Source: Pegea sp. RAD2-039 | Taxonomy: Eukaryota; Chordata; Thaliacea; Salpida; Salpidae | Direction: 5' to 3' | DNA: 64,000 nt | Assembly (NCBI GenBank): GCA_034620365.1 | Contig: JAQGEQ010000071.1 | Location: 5,270,001-5,334,000 of the forward strand | Shown: positions 3,545 to 19,398 of the stretch, piece after piece | How positions within the stretch are numbered: the first letter of the stretch is position 1 | Layout of the letters: each line of letters opens with the position of its first letter | Position numbers and translations under genes: made by a program | Notes under the pieces: model-generated | What the model saw: the letters and a program-made list of their open reading frames with translations, nothing else | What the model was told of the DNA's origin: nothing | Databases searched by the model: none

Positions 3545-6500
3545 TCACAATCCGCATCTAAAAGCGAAGAAGTGCAGCGCGATGAGATAGATGACCACTA
3601 GAGTGCGCAGTGAGAAAAGCTTAATTCGATGATTCTTGCGTCCAAGACGCAACATCCGAGAAACACAAGATCGAGATCTTCGAACCTAAAAAGATGAGGA
3701 TCAGCTAGAGATCATCTCATCAGTTTCTTACCATCTTCACTTTTGAATCATTTAAAAGAATTGATTTTTCATCAGCTTCATCTTCTGATGTTATCTGAAC
3801 TTTGAAGTCACGTGTCTCATCCTGAAGATCAGGTGATGTAGCAGAAAGATCAGGGGCCACTTGATCTTCAACTGGGATGCTTTAAAAATCGAAATTTTAG
3901 TTGAAAGATCACTGGATGATATCTGATACTCACAAAGATGATTTTTCTTCTTCTTGATTACTCTGAAATATTTTGATTGTTGTTAAACAACTTTCTTGTC
4001 AACAACAAACTAACAAACCGAATTTTGAAGATTGAATGTTTGTAGCTGATTCAATTGATGTTGATAATGATGAAGATGAATCAAAAGATGTTGATACTGA
4101 ATCTTCATCTCGTCAATCTATAAATTAAATCATTTTACATCAAATCAAATCTTCATCTAACCTACTTCATTTTGCTTCTTAATCAACATCTCATTTGTGT
4201 CTTTTTCCTGCTGGAGTCGATGCTTCAACCGCTCAATAATGACGTCATCAGTAATGACGTCATCAGTAGTGACGTCATCACAAGAAATTAGTTGGGAAAT
4301 TTGATTGAGAAGAAGTCGAAATGCTGCCACCTGGTGTTCAGTTTTCATCTTCTTTTCAGATGAAAGTTTATCACGTGATTTCAGTTTCGATTTCAGCTGA
4401 TCATTGAACATCCGGGACTCTTTGATCTCGTCATTGTGTCTTGAAATGATACGATCTTTCTCACTCAATTCTGATTTCAGATGATTCTCATTTGATTCAT
4501 ATTGAATCTTCAAAGCTGTAAGACTCTTCACTTGTGAGAAGAGGGATTCAATCCTTCTCTTTTGGGACTCTTTTACCAGATCTTTATCTTTTATTTTATT
4601 CTTCATCTTTACGCAATCTGAAACAAGTCCTGAAATCATCACTTCTCGCTTCTTCAACTGATCTTCCAGGCTCTTTTCTTGATCTTCCACAGCTCCGTGA
4701 AGCGACTCCATCTCCACTTTCGAGTCTTGGATGTCAATCAATGACGTCATTTGATGATCAAGTTGAGATCGGAGATCAGTAATCTCCTCATCTTTCTGCA
4801 TCAGTTCTTCACTGAATTTTGCTTCAATCTGATGACGTAATTGCTCTCGAGAGCTGATGACGTCATCAAGTTGGATCTGAAGATCTTTCTTCTCTTCTTC
4901 AACTTCTGATCTTGATCTCTACAAAGATTATTGGATGTTGATCTTTTAGAGTTAGGGTGTGATCTTACCTTTGAATATTCGAAAAGATTCTTCATCTTGA
5001 GTTGATCTTGTTGAGCTCTTTGCTGAGTCTTCAAAAGTTCGGATGTCAATTCGGAGTACTTTTGTTGATGATCTGCATCTTGAGATTTTATCTTCTCATC
5101 AAGATCTTTGATTTTTATCTTTTCTGCCTCCAACTTGTGGCAAGTCTCTTGATGAGTGATCTTTTCAGACTGAAGAGATGAGTTGAGATGATCACAATCT
5201 TTCACAACCTCCAGGATTCGATTCTTCAAATCTTCATTTTCTTTCTTCTGATCTTGAAGCTCCTCTTCAAGCTTTTTAACTTCCGTCATCAACTTCTGAT
5301 GCTCTTCATCTAACAGATCAAATCTAATCCTTAGATCATCATCTGTTTGTGTCCCTGAATCTAACTTCAACTCCACTTCTTTTAACTTCTCAATCTCTTC
5401 TTCCTGATCCTTAATCTTTCTCAGATCTTCTTCTTTGGACTTTTCTAATTTTCGAAGAGACTTTTCGGCATCCCGAAGAGACTCAATCTTATCCAGAAGA
5501 TTCATCTCAAGTTCTGATCTTGTTTCTTCTAATAATGACGTCATCACGTTCAAATCTTTGTTGCAAGACTCAAGAGTCTTCACTTCTTCTTCTAACATCC
5601 TCTTCTTGATCTCCATCTCCTCTAAGTCTTCTTTCATCTTCTCCTCTTTTTCTTCTATTTCTTTGATCAAAAGATCATGTCTTAGATGAAGATCCTTTTG
5701 TTTCTTCTCATTTATTTCAGCATCATTCTTTTGCTGATATAATAAAATCTTCATCTCTTCGGAAGACTCCTTCAACTCACTCATTTCATCTTTGATCCGG
5801 ATCAAATCTTGTCTACATGAGATTAGATCTTCTTCCATCTGATCTTTACTCTTCATCAGATCTTTACGAGACATCAAAGCCGCTTTTAATCTTCGTTGAA
5901 GATTCAACATCTTATCCTGATCAGTACTTGAAGATCTTTGAAGCTCTTCTTCTTTAACGGAGGACTTATTCAACTCATAACTCAACTTCTTCATCTCTTC
6001 CTTCAAAATCTTCTTTTCTTCTTCTACGATCTTCATCTTTTGATCCAGCTGATCAACTTGATGATGAAGATTTGAGTTTTCGGATTCTACATCTTCTAAT
6101 TGATCTTTTGTTGATTTTAGTGTCTTCAAAGATTCAATTAACTCTTTTTCTTTGAGTCTTTTATCATCTTTCAGCTTTTGTAGATCATCTTTTCCAACTT
6201 CTTCAATTTCTGCTTCCAAAGATTCAATTTTCAGATCCGAATCTTTCAACTGAAGATCAAGATTTTTAATCTTCTTTTTTAATCTTTTAATTTGATCTTC
6301 AGACTGCTCTTTAGAAGTTACAAGATCTTTTGTTAGTGAATCAACCTCAAATCTACATCTTTTCATCTCTTCCCGCTCTCTACCTAACTCTTCTTTCAAA
6401 TTGTCACGTGACAACTTTAGAGCTTGAACTTCATCACCAAGGACTTCAAAATCAGATATCTTTTCACTAAGAATTTTAATCTCAAGATGTAGATCTTCAT

Positions 6501-9500
6501 TCATCTTGGAAGATTTCTCTTTTTCTGCCATCAAGGACTTTCTAGAGATCAGAGCAGCTTTCAGCTTCCGTTGAAGATCAGAAATATTCTTTTTCATCTC
6601 AACTCTATCTTCAGATTCTTCATTCAAACAATCTTTCTTCTCATCCAGTTGTGACGTCATCAACGTCATCTGATCTTTCAATGACGTCACTTCCTGATTC
6701 TTTTCATCCAATTGTGACGTCATCAACGTCATCTCATCTTTCAATGACGTCACTTCCTGATTCTCTCCATTCAATTGTGACGTCATCAACATCATCTGAT
6801 CTTTCAGTGACGTCACTTCCTGATTCTTCATCCATCGTCAGTCATGACGTCACTTCCTGATTCGTGACGTCATCAACATCATCTGATCTTTCAGTGACGT
6901 CACTTCCTGATTCTTCTCATCCAGTTGTGACGTCATCAACGTCATCTGATCTTTCAATGACGTCACTTCCTGATTCTTCTCATCCAATTGTGACGTCATC
7001 AACGTCATCTGATCTTTCAATGACGTCACCTCCTGATTCTTCTCATCCAATTGTGACGTCATCAATATCATCTGATCTTTCAGTGACGTCACTTCCTGAT
7101 TCTCTCCATTCAATTGTGACGTCATCAACGTCATCTGATCTTTCAATGACGTCACTTCCTGATTCTTCTCATCCGATTGTGACGTCATCAACGTCATCTG
7201 ATCTTTCAATGACGTCACTTCCTGATTCTTCTCATCCAATTGTGACGTCCTCAATGTCATCTGATCTTTCAGTGACGTCACTTCCTGATTCTTCTCATCC
7301 GATTGTGACGTCATCAACGTCATCTGATCTTTCAATGACGTCACTTCCTGATTCTCTCCATTCAATTGTGACGTCATCAACGTCATCTGATCTTTCAATG
7401 ACGTCACTTCCTGATTCTTCTCATCCAATTGTGACGTCATCAACGTCATCTGATCTTTCAATGACGTCACTTCCTGATTCTTCTCATCCAATTGTGACGT
7501 CATCTGATCTTTCAATGACGTCACTTCCTGATTCTCTCCATTCAATTGTGACGTCATCAACGTCATCTGATCTTTCAATGACGTCACTTCCTGATTCTTC
7601 TCATCCAGTTGTGACGTCATCAACGTCATCTGATCTTTCAATGACGTCACTTCCTGATTCTTCTCATCCAATTGTGACGTCATCAACGTCATCTGATCTT
7701 TCAATGACGTCACTTCCTGATTCTTCTCATCCAATTGTGACGTCATCAATGTCATCTGATCTTTCAGTGACGTCACTTCTTGATTCTTCTCATCCAATTG
7801 TGACGTCATCAACGTCATCTGATCTTTCAATGACGTCACTCCTGATTCTTCTCATCCAATTGTGACGTCATCAACGTCATCTGATCTTTCAATGACGTCA
7901 CTTCCTGATTCTTCTCATCCAATTGTGACGTCATCAACGTCATCTGATCTTTCAATGACGTCACTTCCTGATTCTCTCCATTCAATTGTGACGTCATCAA
8001 CGTCATCTGATCTTTCAATGACGTCACTTCCTGATTCTTCTCATCCAATTGTGACGTCATCAACGTCATCTGATCTTTCAATGACGTCACTTCTTGATTC
8101 TCTCTCAATTGTGACGTCATCATCATCTGTGACGTCATTCAATCCAGTTGTGACGTCATCAACGTCATCTGATCTTTCAATGACGTCACTTCCTGATTCT
8201 TCTCATCCAATTGTGACGTCATCAATGTCATCTGATCTTTCAATGACGTCACTTCCTGATTCTTCTCATCCGATTGTGACGTCATCAACGTCATCTGATC
8301 TTTCAATGACGTCACTTCCTGATTCTCTCCATTCAATTGTGACGTCATCAACGTCATCTGATCTTTCAATGACGTCACTTCCTGATTCTTCTCATCCAAT
8401 TGTGACGTCATCAACGTCATCTGATCTTTCAATGACGTCACTTCCTGATTCTTTTCATCCAATTGTGACGTCATCAACGTCATCTGATCTTTCAGTGACG
8501 TCACTTCCTGATTCTTCTCATCCAGTTGTGACGTCATCAACATCATCTGATCTTTCAGTGGCGTCACTTCCTGATTCTTCTCATCCAGTTGTGACGTCAT
8601 CAACGTCATCTGATCTTTCAATGACGTCACTTCCTGATTCTTCTCATCCAATTGTGACGTCATCAACGTCATCTGATCTTTCAATGACGTCACTTCCTGA
8701 TTCTTCTCATCCAATTGTGACGTCATCAATGTCATCTGATCTTTCAATGACGTCACTTCCTGATTCTTCTCATTCAATTGTGACGTCATCAACGTCATCT
8801 GATCTTTCAGTGACGTCACTTCCTGATTCTTCTCATCCGATTGTGACGTCATCAACGTCATCTGATCTTTCAATGACGTCACTTCCTGATTCTTCTCATC
8901 CAATTGTGACGTCATCAACGTCATCTGATCTGTCAATGACGTCACTTCCTGATTCTTTTCATCCAATTGTGACGTCATCAACGTCACCTGATCTTTCAGT
9001 GACGTCACTTCCTGCTGATGAGCTACAGATTCGTCTTCATCAATTTTTTTTTCTTTTTTGAAGATATTATTTTGGGATTGTTGATCAGATGCTGAAGAAG
9101 ATTGAAGAAGATCAACTTGGGATGAGGATGTGAGAGATGCTAATTGATCTTTAAGAGATTGAATGAGAAGATCAGACTCTTCAAGACGTACTTGTAATGA
9201 TGAAAGTTCCTGAAACACGAAGATTTGATGACGTCACAACAGATGAAGACACAAACCTGATTATGATCGAAATCTTTTAATGGATGTTGATTTTTGTTGT
9301 TTTGAAATTCTTCTTTTTCTTGCTTCAGTTTTTTCAACTGAATCTGCATCACTTTCATCTTCTTTAGGACTCGCTCTTTTTGAGCTTCGTGTTTTTCGGC
9401 CTATTTCAAAAACGACCATTTTATCTCGAAGCTAATTTTAACAAAAAACTAAATTGTTGAAGAAAAAAAAAATTAAATTTGAATCAGCCAATCACAAAGC

Positions 9501-12500
9501 TTGCTGTTTTCACATCGTCCAATCACGTGTTCGCATTTGTTGATTAATTATTGAAGCAAAATATTTAGTGAAAGCAGTTTTGTGAGTCTACTTTTGTGTA
9601 TACCTGAACTTTTAATATCATTTCGTTCTTATCATGCGACTGCTTAAGGTCTTCTATAGCTCTTGATAACTCACCATCCAAATGAAGTAACTTTGATCTT
9701 GTGTCTTCTAGCTCTTCTTCTTTTTTTCGAATCTTTTAAAAATCAATTTTTTGATTCTTGAAACTTTCAAGATGATTCAACTGACCATGATCTGAAGTTG
9801 GGTGATCTCTTCATCAAAAGATGAATTTTTTTGTGAATGTTCTGATGTAAGGACATCAAATTCGTGATGAAGATGATAATTTGCTGCTTTGTAGTGTTCT
9901 AACTCCTTCTGTTTCACTTCAATCACATCTAAGATCAAATTACATCATTAAAGATCAAATGAAGATGAAGATCTAACTTTTCGTCTCCATCTTCACTTCT
10001 TCTAACTCTTCTTTAACTTTTGAAATGATCAAATCTTTGTTAGTGATGATCGAACACAACTCATCGACTCTTCGAGCAGTCGCGGAGATCTGAGCATCTC
10101 GCTCTTTCAACCTCTCATCAACCATCGAATTGATCTCATTCAACTACATCCACATCTTTAATCAACCAATCAGAAACCATCTTTCAATCTTACCTGTCTT
10201 TCACTCTCATCTTGCAACTCTTTCTTCAGGAAACTGATCTTACTATTTGCCTTATTCAAATCTTCCCCAAGACTTCTAGCAAGATTTTCTCGATCTTTTA
10301 ATCTTTCACAAGTATCCTGAAGTTTTGGAGTAATCTCATCGAGTTGATGTTGATACTGACGAGATGATTTTGAAGTTTGTGATAACCTCTCTTCTAGTAG
10401 ACTATCAACAAAAATCATTAGGAGGTTGGATCCTCATTTAGGACCTCATCAACCTGCAAGTGGATTGAAGACTCGAACACAACTTCCTTTTCTCCTTACA
10501 TTCAATCTCCCATTTTTCCAATTCTTCATTCTTAAAAATAAAATAAAAATATTCAATTTGAAGCAAGATGAAAAAAGAAGACTTTGAACAACGATCATAA
10601 GATCAATTACGGACACAACAACAACATCCGGAGGTAGATTCATGACACGTGGTTGCCATGGTAATAGTTCATCTTGAAATTACAACATCAAAAAAACCTT
10701 CTTGACAACAACAGAAAATTTCTTTGTTGCTTCTGTTAGTTCTTCACTCAGATTTTTATTCTTATTTTCAACTTGATAAAGAAGACTTTTCAAAGTCTTC
10801 ACTTGATCTTCAAGACATGATCTCTCTTTACGGTGATGAGCATTTGACTCATATATTTGATCTTCTAGATAACTTGTCAGTTTGCTCACTTCTAACGCCT
10901 ATTGTTGTAGTGGATAGAAAAAAATAAAAACAAACAAAATAACAAACAACAAACCTGACAATCTAACTTCATCCGCAACTCAACAACTTTATTTTGTTTT
11001 TCTTCAACCTCTGATCTCATCTCTTCTTCTTTTGATTTGAAAATCCTCTGATGAAAAGAGAGTTTAGCAAGTTACAAGGATACTACATCATCAAGATCAC
11101 CAGTTGATCCTCTATCTTGCATTCATGATCGAAAATACATCTTTGTAAATCTTTTTCTTTATCTTCAAATGATCTTCTGATGTCGGTTACTTCATGATCA
11201 TTCAATGCTAATTTTTCGCACAAATTTTCGACCTGTTCATCAATTAAAGACCTTTTAAAGATCTTCATCAGTTTAAGATCAAAACAAGATTTTTTTGAGA
11301 TTTTTATGATTGAAACAATTTATCAAATAAGGAGCTAAAAAAGAGTCTGATGAGAAGATCTAAGAGATGCTAGTTTTATCTCGGATTTTTACAAAGAAAA
11401 TAGTAATCTGAAGCAACTGACTTGTTGTTGAAGGAGGTTTTTCTGCGCATGCGCATCACTGACTTTTTCTTCCAACTTATTTACATACTCAGCGAGATCT
11501 TCTGCTCTTATTTGGGTATTTCCCATAGAAGCATCACAATATTGAGAAATAATAACCAATTCACTTTCATATTGTCGTAATTTGTCTTCTAACTCTGATA
11601 CCTGTTCATCAATCAACCAATCAGAAAACTTTAATTTGAAATCAATTAAATTAAAATGAAAATAAATATTTGAAAGTTTTTAAATAAAAATGTCTGCTGA
11701 GGAGCCTGCTCCCTAAAATCCATCTAAGACTTCATCTTCCAGGACTTCAAGATCCATCTGAGACTTCATCTTCCAGGACTTCAAGATCCATCTGAGACTT
11801 CATCTTCCACGACTTCAAGATCCATCTGAGACTTCATCTTCCACGACTTCAACATCCATCTGAGACTTCATCTTCCACGACTTCAACATCCATCTGAGAC
11901 TTCATCTTCCACGACAGCTCATTTCCATATAAGCAAAAGAATTTCTTCTTCCAACATCCTCATCACTAACCAGCATCCAGAAGACTTTGGATCTTGATGC
12001 TTCCAGCTGAGATCTCAAGAAGTTGTCATCTTCTACATCTTTGAATCACTTCCGAGACTTCAGAGAGAGATCTCGGCTCAATCTTCATGATTTCAGTAAA
12101 AACAAGATCATCGAGGAAGACAAGATCCCAAAAATCTTCTTTGTAAGCTAGAGAGGCAACTGATAAAGACACAGATCTTAGATCTAGGAGATGCTCTGAG
12201 TTGCCACCAAAGAGATCTTTGAGTATCTTCCTGATCTTCCCTATTTGTTCCATATCGGATCTTCTTTCCAACAGATGATTGAGACTCAGGAAGATTTAAA
12301 GATTTGTCATTTACGAACCATAAGCTTAATGACGTCTTCTGGAATCATTCAGATGACGTCATCGTGGGAAGAGTTAGTTGGAAGATTACTTCTGTGGCAA
12401 GTTTATAATAAAAAAAATAAAAAAAGGAAAATTGTTGAAAGAAAATCAAAAGTGGAATTATTTTTCACTTGAAAATTGCAAGTTGCTGATTGGTCAATTT

Positions 12501-15500
12501 GGTTGGTTTGTAATCAGCTGATAATTAAATGTCATCACCTTAGTATTTCGTTCATTTAGTTGCTGGAGTTGTTCTTCGTATTGAGAGCTTTTTTCGTTGT
12601 ACATTTGATTGATTGAGAAGATGATTTGATCTTTTTCTTCAGACTTTTCAGTCAACAACTTCATCTCCTAAAGATTCATTATTTGATTGAAATCAAAAAT
12701 TATTTCTTAAAGATTTAAAATAAGATTCTGAGAACTGATTTGAGATTATTCGAGTCAGAATCAATTGATTGAGATTAATTGCATCACAGTTTACCGTATC
12801 AGCTCACAAAGACCTTTTTTATATTAATCTTGAAACTACATCATCTGTATCTACCTCATCCCGATGAACAAGGATTGATTTTAGATGTTCAATCTCATCT
12901 TGATGACGTTTGTGAGTCACTTCTGTACTTTCTGATGCGTTTTCTAACTCTTGTTGAAGTGTTTTTACCATTTCTTGTTGAGATTTCAACTAAAAAAACA
13001 ACAACAATTAAGAAAATATAAAAAAACAATCACAAATTAACAAACTTGTTCGTGACAAGCTGAATTTTCACTTCTTAAATCACTAATCTTCTTTTTCAAC
13101 TCTGGCATTTCTCTTTCATATTTTTCTTTCTCTTCCAAACTCATCATCAATTGCTCCTTGATTCGCTGAAAAGTATCAAGAATCATAAAACAATCTTTGA
13201 ATCGATCTCTAATCTACCTCCAACTGATCTTTGTAATCCGTGATTTGATCTTCAGTTTGTCGGAGACGATCCACAAATTTTTCGGATGAAGCAAAGTTAT
13301 CTTTTTCATAAACTCTTGCTTTCTTCAGTTTCTCTTCTTGGCCCTTAATCACGAGAATCAGTCTTTTGTAATCCGTGTCTTTCTCCTCGTATCTGTAACA
13401 GGTTTGATCTTAAGATCAACAAGAGATCAACATCCGACTGACCTGTCAAGTGTCTCGTTTAGATCTTCAGAGACTTTTTCGAAATCGAGCAACAACTTCT
13501 CATTTTCATCTGTTAATCTGACGGATTAAAAACTAATTAATCATCAAAAAAAAAACTTTCTTAGAAATTGAGACAAAAATCTAATAAGAAATAAGAAGAG
13601 TTGATTTTCATCAAAACTAAACTTTCTGAAATTTACTAGGAAAGAAAAAAAGCTGAAAAAAAAGCGACAAAAAGAAAAAAATGAAAAAGTTCAACGTGTA
13701 AGAAAATTGTAAGAAAGGAGAAAAGCACATATAAGTAGATACAAGCGTTTATCAGTCACGTGATCAGTCACGTGACTCACCTGTTTATAGTTTCGTTTAG
13801 CTTGGAGATAGTTGTAGAATGATCCACAGATTGCATTTCTTGCTCCCTGGCAAGTTCTTCCAGTTGACATTGAAGAAACTCAATAGTTTGCTGTAATTAA
13901 ATCATAGAAAAGATCTCTACATCAAGATCAATCAAGGAGCACAAACTTGTTGATGCGTGTTAGCGCCACCTAGTGAGCGGTCTTGAAACATCTCAAGATC
14001 ATGATCTGTAAATCAGAGAAGTTGAAATTGGGAGTGTTGATGATCAGATAAACAAATCACCATTTAAATTGGCGTTCAGTTTATCCTGAAGTTGCTCTTT
14101 AACTTCATTCAATCTTCTCTCAGTAGAAACCAACTTCTCAGCAATATGCTCTTGATGCTGTGAAGATCAACATCCGGATTTAATTAACTAAAGATCACAA
14201 TTATCAGATCAGGGATTTGGGAGGAAGACATCATGCCGGAAATCACAACAACTAATTGAACAACATCGAGACTTATTTCGTCGAAGTAATTTAACCTCAA
14301 AATAAAAGATAATTTTTCGATGGAAGCAATCAACATCATTATATCTGTCATCTTTTCCCGTCAATAGCGCCAGCTGGTGGCCAAATATTTTCTCGAGCTA
14401 ATTAGCCAATCAGAAGTCAGAAATCGATTTAGAAATGAATCAGCTGATCACGTGACTTTTAACTTACTTCATCAATTGAATCTTGGAGCTCAGTTGCGCG
14501 ATTTACAGCTTCATCTCGCTCTTCTTTCATCTTGAGATCAATTTCCGGATCTTTAGGATCGATCTGTTTAATCAACATCCGATATTCCTCATTTAACTGA
14601 AATCAACATCCAGTAAGACTCTGATGATTAAGATCAGATCTTTACTTGATTCATTGATTTGTTCTTCATCTCAATCTCATCCTGCAACTTCCCGACTTCA
14701 TCTGAGCTTTTACAAAGAAGATCTTTAAGATCTTCTACAAGGATGTCCTGATCTTGCTCTTTTTTTACACATCTTTCAACTTCTTTTTCACTCGCATCCA
14801 AAGATCTGATCACATCTTCCAGTTTCTTCTTCAGATCTTCTGCATCCTTTTTAGATTCTTCCAATCTCATTTCAACTTCCTTTCGCTCTTTCATCAATGA
14901 AGACACACTCTCAGAAGAATCCTTCAACTTCTTCATCACTTCTTCTTGCTTCTCATCCATCTGATCTCGGATTCTTTTACAATCCAAGTCACGTGACTCA
15001 AGCTGCGCGCGTAATGACGTCACTTCTACATCATAGTTTGACGTCAACTCATCAATTTGAAATCGAAACTCTTCATTCTTATTTTGGGAGTCTTCCTCCA
15101 TTCTTTTGATCTCTTCTTCTTTATCTTCCAGGGTTTTTGTCTGGACCTCAAGTACCTGGACACATTGGTCAACTTCATCAACTTTTTCAGTTTTTAAAAC
15201 TAACTTTGGTTTGAGAGTTTAACTGGTCGGTGATGGTCCGAATCCTTATGTTGACAGCTTCCAGACCATCTACTTCCAAACCACCTGAACTATCTCTCTC
15301 ATTTCTTAACGCCGAGAACTTTTCTAGAAAAAGAAGTTGTCAAGTTTTCAGATAAGTTTCAAATCATCAACTTGCAAACCTTCGTAAGCAATTTCTTTTT
15401 GCTGCCAAATTGAGTTTTGTTCATCAAACTGTTGATTAATTTGTCGAAGATGTACTTGTAGACGGGCAATATCTTCCAAATAAATTTGATTTTGTTCCTA

Positions 15501-18500
15501 GAGACAACAACATGAATGTCTTGGAGTGTTGAGGAGCAGGTGATACTTTAAGAGCAGCATTTTCTGCGATCTGAAGATCTTTTTGTACAAGTAGTTCATC
15601 ATATTTATTCTGGAAGTTGATGCCTTCGCTATCATGCCAAGATTTTAAAACATTTTCAGTTTCTATGTTTCCATTTTCCTAAAGATAAATTAAAGAAAAT
15701 AAATCAAGAATTCGAATCATGAATACTACTTCATTCTGAATTTTGATTTATTTCTAATCTTTAGATTCAATAATGAATAAATAATGAAGAATTTAGAGGA
15801 CTCTCTCTAAGTATCAACTGAATTTTTTGTGGTCGAAAGTTGTGCTGGTTTTTATCAGTTCACTACAAACATTGATATTGTTCAGATGTATTTATAAAAA
15901 CTTTCATGAAAATATCTTTCTTGGTTTAATTACATCAACTATTTCAAGAATAATGTGGTGTTATTTGTGATTTAATTCAAAAGTTGAAATTAATTTTAAA
16001 CTTTTTGGTTAGATAAAAAGTGTGTTGCTCCTTCAACCGTCTTCATCTATTATTCAAGTGGAAAAGTTTAAGATAAAACAAACTTTCAAGACCTGATCTT
16101 CTATTTGGTCTTCATTTTTAGTATCGATAGTTTGAAGATGACAAATTGTGTCTTGTAGATCCTGAAGAAAAGAATTGATTGAACCAAAACTACAAACAGT
16201 AAAGTATTTTGCGGCTGACGTAAATGTGTTAATTTCGTAATAGACTAGTTATAAGTATCGTTAATATATTTATGGTTGTTGGTAGTCAACTTATTTATTA
16301 GAATAAATCTCGATATAACGAGTGATTATCATCACAAAAGCTAGAAAATTGCAACAAACTAACTGATATTTGAGTATTTCGTTCAGTCAACTCATATTGT
16401 AGTAAACTAACTACTTTATCTTTTCCACTCATTACTTCTTCTTGCTCGTGAAGTTTTCGTTTCAAAGAACGAATTAACTAAAAAATAAGAAACTTTTGTG
16501 AGCTGTTTATTTAAATAACTTTTTGACTTAAATTGTTTTAAATAAATCATTTTGAAAGCTAATGATGGAAAATATGGCTTTAAAAACTTTGGGGTTGAAA
16601 TCAGTTTTGATTTTATCGAATTTGTTCAAATAAATATTCACTTGATCATTTTCGAACGTCGAATCTTTAATATCTTCAATTTGTGTTTGACTTTCTCTCT
16701 TCAACTGCAGGATCTGTTCTTCTTTTAAAGCTACAGTTTCTTCTTTATCTCGAAGCTTCGATTTCAATTTATCATTCTAAAAATAAAAAACAAATTTATG
16801 TAAAATAATTTGCAGAAATTGAAAAACAAACTTGATTTTGAAGATTAAAAACATTTGTATTTTGATTTTGATTTTCTTCTGAGATAACAGCAATATTTTC
16901 TTCCTGTTCAGCTAGCTTTAGACTCAATTTATTGAGTAACAATTTTTGTTGTTCTACAGTTTTATTTACTTCATCACATTCAATTTGTGATTTCTGAAGA
17001 AGAAATTATTTTAGGTTCAGCATTCAACTTCTTGTTTAATCACCTTTAATAACTGAGAAAGATTTTTGATATAAGACTCTCTCTCGTCTAATTTAGATGT
17101 GATGTCAGATATTTTTTTATCTTTCCCGACTATTGCAGAATACAGTTCTTTAAAATGGGAGTTTTCCTGTAAATAATAAAACATTTTTTTTATACAAATA
17201 TTTTCTTTCACGTTTTTACTGCGTTAGTAGTCAAACCGGTAAAACAGAAAACATTTTATTTTAGAGAGAAGCAATTTTAAGTGAAGCATAAATATTAATT
17301 CTACATTTTTGTCTGAATTTTTATCCAAAAACATTTTGAAGTCTGTCTTGAAGCGGTTTAAAAACTCAATTTAAAATCTACAAAAAAACAAACAAATCAA
17401 CAAGAGATTAGTGATTAACATCCAGCTAGTTAATCAATCACTAATATCGATCCCCGGCTATGAGTAAATAAGAGGAGCGGGATTATAGGAGTAAATCCTG
17501 ATCTGGATAAAAATTTGTAAAAAAAATTTGGGTCTTATAGCCCTGGTAGACAGTTCATTAGGACAGGGACAATCTGAAATCAAATCTATGATCTTTTGAC
17601 CTTGAAGTCACTGTCCCAGTTCACTGGGCCGAGGTCTAAGGCTGGAGGTATTTCAGTGCTTTTTAATCATAATCAAAACGCAGGAAGGAATTTATTTGCA
17701 TCTGCTACTTACGAATCTTAGCCTAAAAAATTGATCATGTAAAGTGAGATTTTGTTTGACTCTAAAGACATCTAAAAAAATCAATTAAGTGATGATCGAT
17801 ACCAAATTGCTAAAGTAGACATCTGTAGGTATTGATTGATGTGATGGAAGGTTTTAGATGAGAAATATTTACTCTGAGGATCTTTTTCATTACCTTTAAT
17901 GAATCAATATTGATTCCTTGATTCGATGAAACCTGTTGGAGTCTTTCACTTAGCTCTTCGTGTCTGGAATGGAAGTCCTTTCTTAACTTCTCAAATTTTC
18001 CCTCCTGAAAGATAGTTTTGAAAAAAATCTTGTAAAAGATATCAGATTGTATACTTGTTCTTTTAAAGTCTTCTGTTGTTTCTCAATAGTTCTTTCTTTT
18101 TCTTCAATTTTTTTCTGTTGTAAAAGCAACTTGCTTCTTGTTTTTGGTGATTCAGTCGACTAGAAAACAAATTTCTTCAATTAAATTATTTTCTTTTATT
18201 GTAGTTAAATTATGTCAAAAAAATTTGAATTTTTATTCATTTTCTGATGCAAATAACAAATTATAAAACTCTTTTAGTGAACACTTTCTCATTTTGTTAT
18301 TAAATTCAAATTAAATATTTAATACATTTACAAAAATCACCAAATTTTCCTGAAGTATTTAAAATGATTAATCAATAAAAACATGATCATTTATCAGCAG
18401 GTTTTTACACAAACCTCAGTTTTTGGGCTTTTTCCACTGTTTTTTGCTAAAGATTTATCACCGCCTTTCTTTGTCATACTTGCAATCTTGGCATCTTTAG

Positions 18501-19398
18501 CTTTCAACTGAAGACGAGATTTTGATAATTTCATTTCACTCTCCTAATGAATCAAAAGATATTTTATTAATTTGATTTATTTAATCTTATAAATTCTTAT
18601 CTTTTGTAGCTTCAATGATAATTGATAACAATTTTTAAAAAAGCTGTTTATATTTAGTCACTCAGTTTAATTTAGAATAAATAAAACAGTTAATGATAGC
18701 TTACAATCAAACAAAATTAAAAATTAAATAAAGTTTACAAAAATATTTAAAGTTAAAATTAGCATTAATGAGCCATATAAACAGTTTTGAGAAATTACTT
18801 AGAGATAAAAATTGAGTTTCATGATTATTAGAATAGAACTTAAAGTAATTTCTCAATTAGGTTAAAAATGTTTTCTCATCAATTTCATTAACAATTTAGA
18901 TTACAAATATTTAACAGAATGTCTTCTTCTCTAAGAACCTTATATAATGATACAATTATTGATTGGAAAGACAAGATAAGTAAAAAAAGATAGTAATTAT
19001 AAAAAATTGTTTAATAATATCTTAAAACCGTGAAACTAAAGTAAATAAAACTTTAAGGAAACAAATAAATAAAACAATTCAAGATATAGGATAAAAATTC
19101 GAAAAGTAAAAGTTTCAGAATAAACTGATTGACAATTAAAATCAAATAATTGAATATTTTTGTGAAAAAAATCAACAATTTTAAAGACATTACTCTACAG
19201 TTGATAATGAACTTGAATACAAAAACAAGTAAAATCTGTTCAAGCAATCTTAATTAAGTAAGCAAGTAAATGCAATTACAAAAAATCTTAACAAGATACC
19301 TTGAGAGATTTGTTTTTTTCTTCAACTTCTGCATCTTTCTGACGGATCAGATCTTTTAGTTGATCAATCAACATTTGTTGAGACACTAGTTCATCCAT
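3545..19398 (-). CDS. GOLGB1: Giant tail-anchored coiled-coil golgin, giantin-like
   Basis: Predicted Golgi membrane tether of about 3,310 aa; human giantin is about 3,260 aa. Evidence: near the N terminus LIDQLKDLIRQKDAEVEEKN resembles giantin's LKDIIRQKD segment; LQRKLKAALISRKSLMAEK and LQRRLKAALMSRKDLMK match giantin's recurring LQRKLQAALISRKE motif; nearly everything else is heptad coiled coil; the last exon ends basic then hydrophobic (RTLVVIYLIALHFFAFRCGL stop), a C-terminal anchor like giantin's. Exons, transcript order: 19398-19300, 18543-18415, 18159-18055, 18004-17894, 17166-17044, 16993-16832, 16776-16642, 16477-16364, 16161-16093, 15678-15547, 15497-15380, 15323-15205, 15155-14646, 14596-14468, 14397-14296, 14157-14061, 14005-13947, 13890-13781, 13517-13443, 13392-13218, 13165-13046, 12989-12855, 12667-12539, 11601-11422, 11232-11101, 11047-10955, 10898-10698, 10530-10454, 10401-10194, 10143-9978, 9928-9786, 9732-9604, 9400-9257, 9209-4969, 4918-4166, 4117-4019, 3962-3934, 3879-3732, 3685-3545. 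Phase is kept at every junction. The large exon has frame breaks inside its repeat array (see findings). Orthology rests on recalled motifs; the coiled-coil tail-anchored nature is directly visible. Confidence 0.8.
6640..9017 (-). repeat. Coding tandem array, about 37 copies of a 63-bp (21-aa) unit
   Basis: The array lies inside the largest exon of the giantin-like gene. The consensus 21-residue unit is NQEVTSLKDQMTLMTSQLDE plus K, and a variant ends LNGE in place of LDEK. Hydrophobic V4, L7, M11, M14 and L18 follow a/d spacing, and 21 residues is exactly three heptads, so the coiled coil stays in register across copies. At DNA level each unit holds two perfect TGACGTCA palindromes, coding V-T-S and M-T-S, plus a TGACGTTG half-site coding M-T-L. 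One unit near 7500 lacks four codons. The array is interrupted at 8139-8141 (in-frame TGA), at about 7839-7841 (one base missing) and at about 6840-6852 (in-frame TGA codons in a scrambled unit). It matches neither CRISPR nor a non-coding satellite. Confidence 0.97.
11720..11914. repeat. Intronic minisatellite, 34-bp unit, about 5.7 copies
   Basis: The unit is CCATCTGAGACTTCATCTTC followed by CACGACTTCAACAT, with some copies reading AGGACTTCAAGAT. The 34-bp period is not a multiple of three, so it is unlikely to be coding. It lies in the unusually long 937-bp intron (11602-12538) of the giantin-like gene. The same intron has an 81-codon open frame on the minus strand at 12026-12271 with no coiled-coil character and no convincing splice sites, which I do not call as an exon. 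Confidence 0.9.
16205..16330 (+). repeat. Dispersed LTR-like repeat, copy 1
   Basis: It lies within the 202-bp intron (16162-16363) of the giantin-like gene. It shares two blocks with a second copy at about 60722-60890: a left block around GCTGACGTAAATGTGTT and a right block AGTCAACTTATTTATTAGAA followed by TAAATCTCGATATAA. The right block contains an AATAAA polyadenylation signal, as an LTR R region would. The middle differs in length. Similarity was judged by eye and no termini or target duplications were established. Confidence 0.45.
17167..17893. other. Long giantin-like intron with inverted repeat
   Basis: A 727-bp intron, much longer than most of its neighbours. At about 17410-17450 it has inverted arms ATTAGTGATTAAC and GTTAATCAATCACTAAT around a short spacer. 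At about 17540-17660 there is a less AT-rich stretch (GGACAGGGACAATCTG, later CACTGTCCCAGTTCACTGGG). I found no in-phase coiled-coil exon here. It may be an old mobile element insertion, but no element family is recognised. Confidence 0.35.

Follow-up and report, generated by a model that had tools for sequence, protein, structure and literature searches.

A putative coding minisatellite carrying an overrepresented palindrome in a giantin-like gene

The tandem array and its host gene

The window analysed here is a stretch of 64,000 bp (G000:C1:5270001-5334000) from an assembly of 105.7 Mb in 387 contigs. Its minus strand carries a gene that resembles vertebrate giantin, and one of the modelled exons of this gene contains a long tandem array of a 63-bp unit. 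The gene and its main parts are as follows:

3545..19398, minus strand: giantin-like gene of about 35 modelled exons (exon script), with the ATG at 19398 and the stop codon TGA at 3547-3545
19300..19398, minus strand: first exon; QLKDLIRQKDAEVEEK resembles the N-terminus of giantin
4969..9209, minus strand: modelled array exon of 4.2 kb, with a TTTCAG acceptor before 9209 and a GTAAGA donor after 4969
6631..9014, minus strand: tandem array of 38 units of 63 bp (21 residues), consensus EVTSLKDQMTLMTSQLDEKNQ, delimited with TRF and by splitting at the unit start
3545..3685, minus strand: last exon, encoding a hydrophobic C-terminal tail (LRTLVVIYLIALHFFAFRCGL, then the stop), judged by eye

Elsewhere in the window, the minus strand at 1-155 holds what looks by eye like the start of a ribosomal protein S9-like gene.

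Exons were modelled by our own script, which was trained on the long open reading frames (ORFs) of the giantin-like gene, works without transcripts and allows only open chains. Within this constraint, open exons bordered by GT-AG could be chained on both sides of the array. The raw model comprised 36 exon pieces and 7,357 nt, a figure in which the array exon is counted twice and ~204 nt of the array are included; the modelled coding length outside the array is ~7,150 nt, in ~35 exons. Two tiny exons, at 11905 and 11778, were dropped as spurious. They lie inside a 34-bp tandem array of 5.8 copies (11718-11915), itself probably intronic. The gene model may lack exons between 4162 and 3871. The longest ORFs beside the array look coil-like, and the protein would have ~3,180 residues if the array were read through.

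TRF reported the 63-bp array as three pieces (6635-6828, 6864-8122 and 8142-9014), while splitting the minus strand at each unit start yielded 38 units that run from 9011 to 6631. Unit length is exactly 63 bp in 32 of the 37 units that are followed by another start; the five odd units measure 99, 62, 54, 50 and 37 bp. Identity was computed for 33 units, namely the 32 of 63 bp plus the last unit of the array, which was trimmed to 63 bp and whose final two codons differ. Mean identity was 96.9% to the consensus and 94.7% between pairs of units, and six of the 33 units equal the consensus at the DNA level. The original prediction had placed about 37 near-perfect copies at 6640..9017, and the array itself is borne out, with 38 units between 9014 and ~6631; its minus-strand orientation and the palindromes described below were absent from that prediction. 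The longest repeated run of unit types was three, a value reached in 129 of 2,000 shuffles, and block duplication is not clear from it. A DNA search of the assembly found no second copy of the array locus.

Each consensus unit contains the eight-letter palindrome TGACGTCA twice. One of the two copies has been lost through substitution in 2 of the 33 units.

Interruptions of the reading frame

The array had been predicted to lie inside one exon. In the assembly it does not form a single open frame: on the minus strand the frame stays open as far as unit 13, after which three breaks inside the array split it into the ORFs 9233-8139, 8138-7836, 7851-6850 and 6837-4801. The odd units are these:

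8094..8192, minus strand: unit 14, 99 bp, equal to two units minus 27 bp; in-frame TGA at 8141-8139, four TGACGTCA intact
7838..7904, minus strand: unit 18 and its border with unit 19; loss of 1 nt near 7840, the only net frameshift of the array
7474..7527, minus strand: unit 24, 54 bp; 9 bp lost, in frame
6820..6906, minus strand: units 34 and 35, 50 and 37 bp, scrambled; net 39 bp lost, in-frame stop at 6852-6850

The combined length of units 34 and 35 is still a multiple of three, and from unit 36 onward the frame stays open as far as 4969, where the exon ends, and past it. Since the frame is interrupted three times, the printed protein, as computed from the assembled frame, would end after ~1,777 residues and lack its anchor. 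In having a broken frame as assembled, the array gene is unlike vertebrate giantin.

The breaks are about equally likely to be assembly errors or to belong to a truly broken allele. Assembly error is plausible because a near-identical array of 2.4 kb is hard to assemble and because the gene otherwise looks intact, although the latter is a weak argument, since the exon script can return only open exons. If the allele is truly broken, it would have gained the stops and the frameshift, it would encode the truncated protein without the anchor, and it would be either null or sheltered. Three separate breaks agree with this explanation. It is plausible also because the five odd units retain 11 of 12 palindromes with 76 bp missing, which is unlike random sequencing noise, and because, in five other arrays of the assembly (see below), the frame judged by eye to be coding is unbroken. 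On the other hand, open exons can be chained on both sides of the array, though the script permits nothing else, and the array exceeds the others in length and has very uniform units, which makes it more difficult to assemble. We put a truly broken allele at a little short of even odds.

A predicted helical rod in heptad register

The 21-residue unit comprises three heptads, in which V2, L5, M9, M12 and L16 fall on a/d positions. The core consists of V2, M9 and L16 on the one hand and of L5, M12 and K19 on the other, K19 being its sole polar residue. The hydrophobic a/d positions first listed as 4, 7, 11, 14 and 18 correspond to V2, L5, M9, M12 and L16. When the 21-mer was shuffled, five of the six core positions were reached in 226 of 20,000 shuffles. 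By arithmetic, a unit of 3 x 7 residues preserves the heptad register whenever whole units are gained or lost, as had been stated. The array contributes 794 codons, which at 0.1485 nm each amount to a rod of ~118 nm; this recomputation agrees with the estimate of ~780 residues and ~115 nm made beforehand.

Just downstream of the array, in the two windows starting at residues 64 and 71 of the tested stretch, the phase of the array scored best, at 0.62. The register continues for ~35 residues into the downstream coil, and the phases tie afterwards. Upstream, a linker with pLDDT below 50 separates the previous coil from the array.

Two AlphaFold runs were made, both with one sequence as a single chain, which modelled stretches of 356 and 373 residues as helical, and dimerisation is outside what such models show. 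In the best model of the array, the array is helical, with a mean pLDDT of 87.3 and values above 90 over most of its length; the helix is interrupted at residues 211-215, beside the sole unit that bears a proline. The other four models of the array had mean pLDDT values of 70-74. The second run, which spanned the downstream junction, gave a single helix over residues 2-205 (pTM 0.22). A coiled coil across the array, as originally proposed, is in agreement with the helix of the best model and with the register kept for ~35 residues downstream; the lower values of the other four models and the use of one sequence as a single chain count against it.

A palindromic octamer in genome-wide excess

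There are 75 copies of TGACGTCA in the array, where it is read as VTS and MTS, 10 in the rest of the gene (8 in modelled exons and 2 in introns) and 14 in the rest of the window. Copies outside the array include the following (no strand assigned):

4240..4277: part of a modelled exon farther downstream, with three TGACGTCA at 15-bp spacing, read in another frame (DDVTTDDVITDDVI)
9229..9236: one TGACGTCA immediately before the array exon, in the modelled intron upstream of it
12354..12361: one TGACGTCA, likewise intronic in the model of the giantin-like gene

In the whole genome, exact TGACGTCA was found 27,792 times, that is, once per 3.8 kb, compared with 969 times for the letter-reversed control. 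With one mismatch allowed, the totals were 64,917 and 28,668, respectively. The mean one-mismatch neighbour numbered 1,547 for TGACGTCA and 1,154 for the control, and the ratio of exact matches to the mean neighbour was 18x for the former and 0.84x for the latter. The excess was also found in 261,570 sampled bases, which included the window and excluded the array: TGACGTCA occurred 60 times versus 1.38 expected, while its 24 neighbours ranged from 0 to 3x their expectation. In 20 stretches of 10 kb, all from contig C1, it was the most enriched palindromic octamer, with 36 copies versus 1.03 expected. These copies were found in 9 of the 20 stretches, and 27 of the 36 lay in two of them. A smaller genome excess was seen for TCACGTGA (4,614 versus 237).

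The sites of TGACGTCA cluster with local GC (Spearman 0.26, 260 bins). Three palindromes at short range were found at 1,632 places, some of which are overlapping matches in the window array, versus 0 for the control. Even placement at the density of TGACGTCA would give ~1.4 such places, and the clustering with local GC may also contribute to the number observed.

Two candidate explanations for the distribution of TGACGTCA were rejected. A transposon origin was discarded on the basis of the flanks of 60 dispersed sites, which are alike over only about three bases on each side. A preference for exons was discarded as well: 29 of the 60 sites lie in ORFs of at least 80 aa, compared with 45% of GC-matched random places, which leaves no preference beyond GC.

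The available part of one survey of the TGACGTCA octamer near Ciona start sites describes no positional bias and mentions no excess (PMC1796609). Among the matches listed in a search of open-licence literature, which covered titles and the openings of abstracts, there was no report of this array or of such an excess in an ascidian.

Other palindrome arrays and clusters

Searching the genome with the palindrome-bearing array as query revealed further arrays, which are hence no random sample:

L003: 27 bp x 39, palindrome read as DDV
L004: 30 bp x 12 and 24 bp x 9, palindrome read as DDV; the 24-bp unit is of the TCACGTGA type
L006: 30 bp x 23, palindrome read as VTS
L008: 18/39 bp, palindrome read as DDV

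The periods of all these arrays are multiples of 3. Each array is open in three or four of the six frames, and the coding frame was picked by eye as the one that runs into the flanks; openness is therefore weak evidence of coding. At L008:1255-1762, the array is of an acidic DDDVT type and lies in an open frame; the gene resembles, by eye, a channel gene (FLLFFLLLYGLLGVQLFG then follows). Two other matches, L005 and L007, were put aside for their 19-bp period and their few palindromes (2 and 4). L005:1-1218 and L007:1-1051 are contig ends that have a 19-bp satellite in common and are mutual complements, and they perhaps mark subtelomeric sequence or a limit of the assembly.

Spacing was analysed in 14 clusters of TGACGTCA, hand-picked among the matches listed, minus two overlapping rows and those in the giantin-like gene. 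Pairs of equal spacings were present in 5 of the 14 clusters (p ~1e-4 if spacings are random and independent), and three of these five clusters lie in one gene. The idea that all clusters have coding periods was rejected, as 21 of the 28 spacings in the 14 clusters are not multiples of 3. At L035:1-1201 (G000:C1:3615800-3617000), 18 exact and 2 one-mismatch copies of TGACGTCA lie in 1.2 kb. They recur with a period of 23 or 20 in two short intron-like stretches, and with a period of 20 after the apparent last exon. The gene at L035 looks by eye like an adenylyl cyclase.

Substitutions inside and outside the octamer were compared in four arrays, using 32 of the 38 giantin-like units (the five odd units and the last one were excluded), 39/39 units of L003, 23/23 of L006 and 12/13 of L004, whose 24-bp array was left out, as was L008. 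Among distinct synonymous changes, 1 was inside the octamer and 15 were outside, on 11.3 and 19.0 synonymous sites, respectively (p 0.006). For all changes, the numbers were 7 inside and 49 outside, on 40 and 110 sites (p 0.009). The changes counted are not independent events, and one non-synonymous change, counted where unit 19 begins, is spurious and stems from the 1-nt deletion. In the window array, the synonymous share was mildly raised over the neutral 22%, with 6 of 17 distinct changes and 28 of 60 counted changes (32 units).

Coding repeat or product of the palindrome

The abundance of TGACGTCA raises the alternative that coding is incidental and that the palindrome gave rise to the array at the DNA level, the protein merely tolerating it. 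The large genome-wide excess fits this explanation, and so do the reading of TGACGTCA in different frames in different exons, the period-20 and period-23 repeats outside apparent exons, and the resistance of the octamer to synonymous change in four arrays. Against it stand the exact three-heptad length of the predicted coil, its good core, seldom matched by shuffling, and the fit of its register to the next stretch. We lean, not strongly, against purely incidental coding; a DNA-level product and a coding minisatellite are, moreover, compatible readings. Since the region contains 75 TGACGTCA and other genes also have palindrome arrays, selection for a longer tether is no more likely than a cause at the level of DNA. 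Our best reading is that the array is one instance of palindrome-associated tandem duplication and, with its 75 palindromes, the largest case in this analysis. The data suggest that the genome has frequent tandem duplications around TGACGTCA and that exons keep mainly multiples of three bases.

Motifs that initiate breaks are expected to erode, not to accumulate. The ATGACGTCA of the array includes ATGACGT and is in this respect like the M26/CRE hotspot of fission yeast, the likeness being a sequence match only; ATGACGT is reported to be the binding site of Atf1-Pcr1 in that species (PMC2677671). Cyanobacterial HIP1 likewise is one palindromic octamer in great excess, and a repair-driven iterated palindrome has been proposed for it (PMC4390886). 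The excess described here differs from HIP1 in that it is found in an animal genome, involves another sequence, and is clustered and in tandem arrays. By analogy with these systems, it is possible that TGACGTCA causes duplication, either as an M26-like hotspot or as a HIP1-like repair-driven iterated palindrome; it may equally just persist through duplications that it does not cause.

Coding minisatellites, or protein VNTRs, likewise consist of highly similar units set head to tail, here in a putatively coding region; the array differs from them in that its unit bears an octamer in genome-wide excess. Chicken BG genes reportedly show size polymorphism by heptad number. As in the present gene, their coding repeats match the heptad in length and belong to a presumed coiled coil (PMC4046983). 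In BG genes each heptad has its own small exon, whereas here the 63-bp units stand head to tail in one modelled exon.

Likeness of the host gene to giantin

Human giantin has ~3,260 residues, similar to the ~3,180 of the protein modelled here. To our knowledge, vertebrate giantin has no near-perfect amplified 21-residue block. The gene is otherwise like vertebrate giantin (GOLGB1) in its predicted very long coiled coil, in what looks by eye like a hydrophobic C-terminal tail with a tyrosine, and in a putatively similar N-terminal motif. A single comparison of the N-terminus with human giantin gave 13 identical residues out of 31 (30 bits, E 4e-6). As described in PMC5840792, giantin arises within chordates, giantin, CASP and golgin-84 have similar anchors, and a tyrosine in the CASP anchor is required for ER export.

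Pfam gave no family on the N-terminal piece or on the 94-residue, hand-joined C-terminal piece, NCBIfam gave none on the C-terminal piece, and a PDB search with the N-terminus of the giantin-like protein gave no match. On the array, 24 Pfam families matched, 11 of them above the cut-offs. These families contradict one another, and their matches look like generic coil matches. The identity of the gene as golgin-like is supported by its sequence features. The original prediction of a golgin-type gene agrees with the long coiled coil, the hydrophobic C-terminal tail and the giantin-resembling N-terminus; the Golgi part of that prediction we infer.

The gene might instead encode another long or tail-anchored coiled-coil protein, such as CASP, golgin-84, TMF or an SMC-like protein. 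The likeness to giantin concerns 31 residues compared with the human sequence, the array's Pfam matches include the TMF model, and NCBIfam returned SMC coil matches, though far below the cut-off. We nevertheless consider this unlikely, given the length of ~3,180 residues, the position of the hydrophobic tail at the very C-terminus and the lack of a Pfam match on the 94-residue tail piece. Very improbable is a fourth explanation, in which the array is spliced out wholly or partly and the frame breaks are irrelevant: the exon script does find a route round the breaks via unit-internal sites, but these sites (GTGACGTC donors, and acceptors like TTGAAAGATCAG that lack a pyrimidine tract) simply belong to the repeated sequence, the 63-bp length is kept in 32 of 37 units, and the register fits the downstream flank.

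A proposed model for the array

We assign a probability of roughly two in three to the reading that a giantin-like golgin gene here contains a coding minisatellite, which lengthened the rod in whole heptads as a spacer for the membrane anchor. Under this reading, a 63-bp stretch of a coiled-coil exon with two TGACGTCA would have multiplied in tandem to 38 copies. Each added unit would lengthen the rod by ~3.1 nm and leave the register undisturbed, because 63 bp equal three heptads. The array would then act as a spacer of ~118 nm in all between the N-terminus and the membrane anchor, presumably spacing a Golgi tether. The exon structure would be as modelled; the whole array would be transcribed and translated, its copy number may still be changing, and the palindrome may have taken part in the duplication.

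A broader proposal, about which we are rather doubtful, is that TGACGTCA is the animal counterpart of a highly iterated palindrome, which is kept exact and joins in germ-line tandem duplication. Duplication would occur with any period outside exons and mainly with multiples of three inside them, giving rise to repetitive proteins. The giantin-like spacer would have been made in this way and then kept as three heptads.

If the array is translated and variable, it would amount to a naturally occurring set of Golgi tethers of graded length, in which tether length could be compared with copy number. The excess of the exact octamer, the near-background numbers of its neighbours and the arrays in several genes call for a mechanism, be it binding, repair bias or recombination. 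With the palindrome, new repetitive proteins would have a way to arise at the level of DNA.

Additional observations in the assembly

Judged from a spliced leader and a glycosyl hydrolase 6 match, the host is probably an ascidian. A search of the assembly for mitochondrial COX1 gave no match. A spliced-leader 16-mer of Ciona was found at 149 + 123 = 272 exact places, many of them in one tandem array, versus 0 for the reversed sequence. At G000:C4:1135044-1142217 the 16-mer recurs at ~199-bp spacing, and this stretch is probably an SL gene array. The genome also contains a marginal match to glycosyl hydrolase 6 (27.5 bits versus a cut-off of 27.0).
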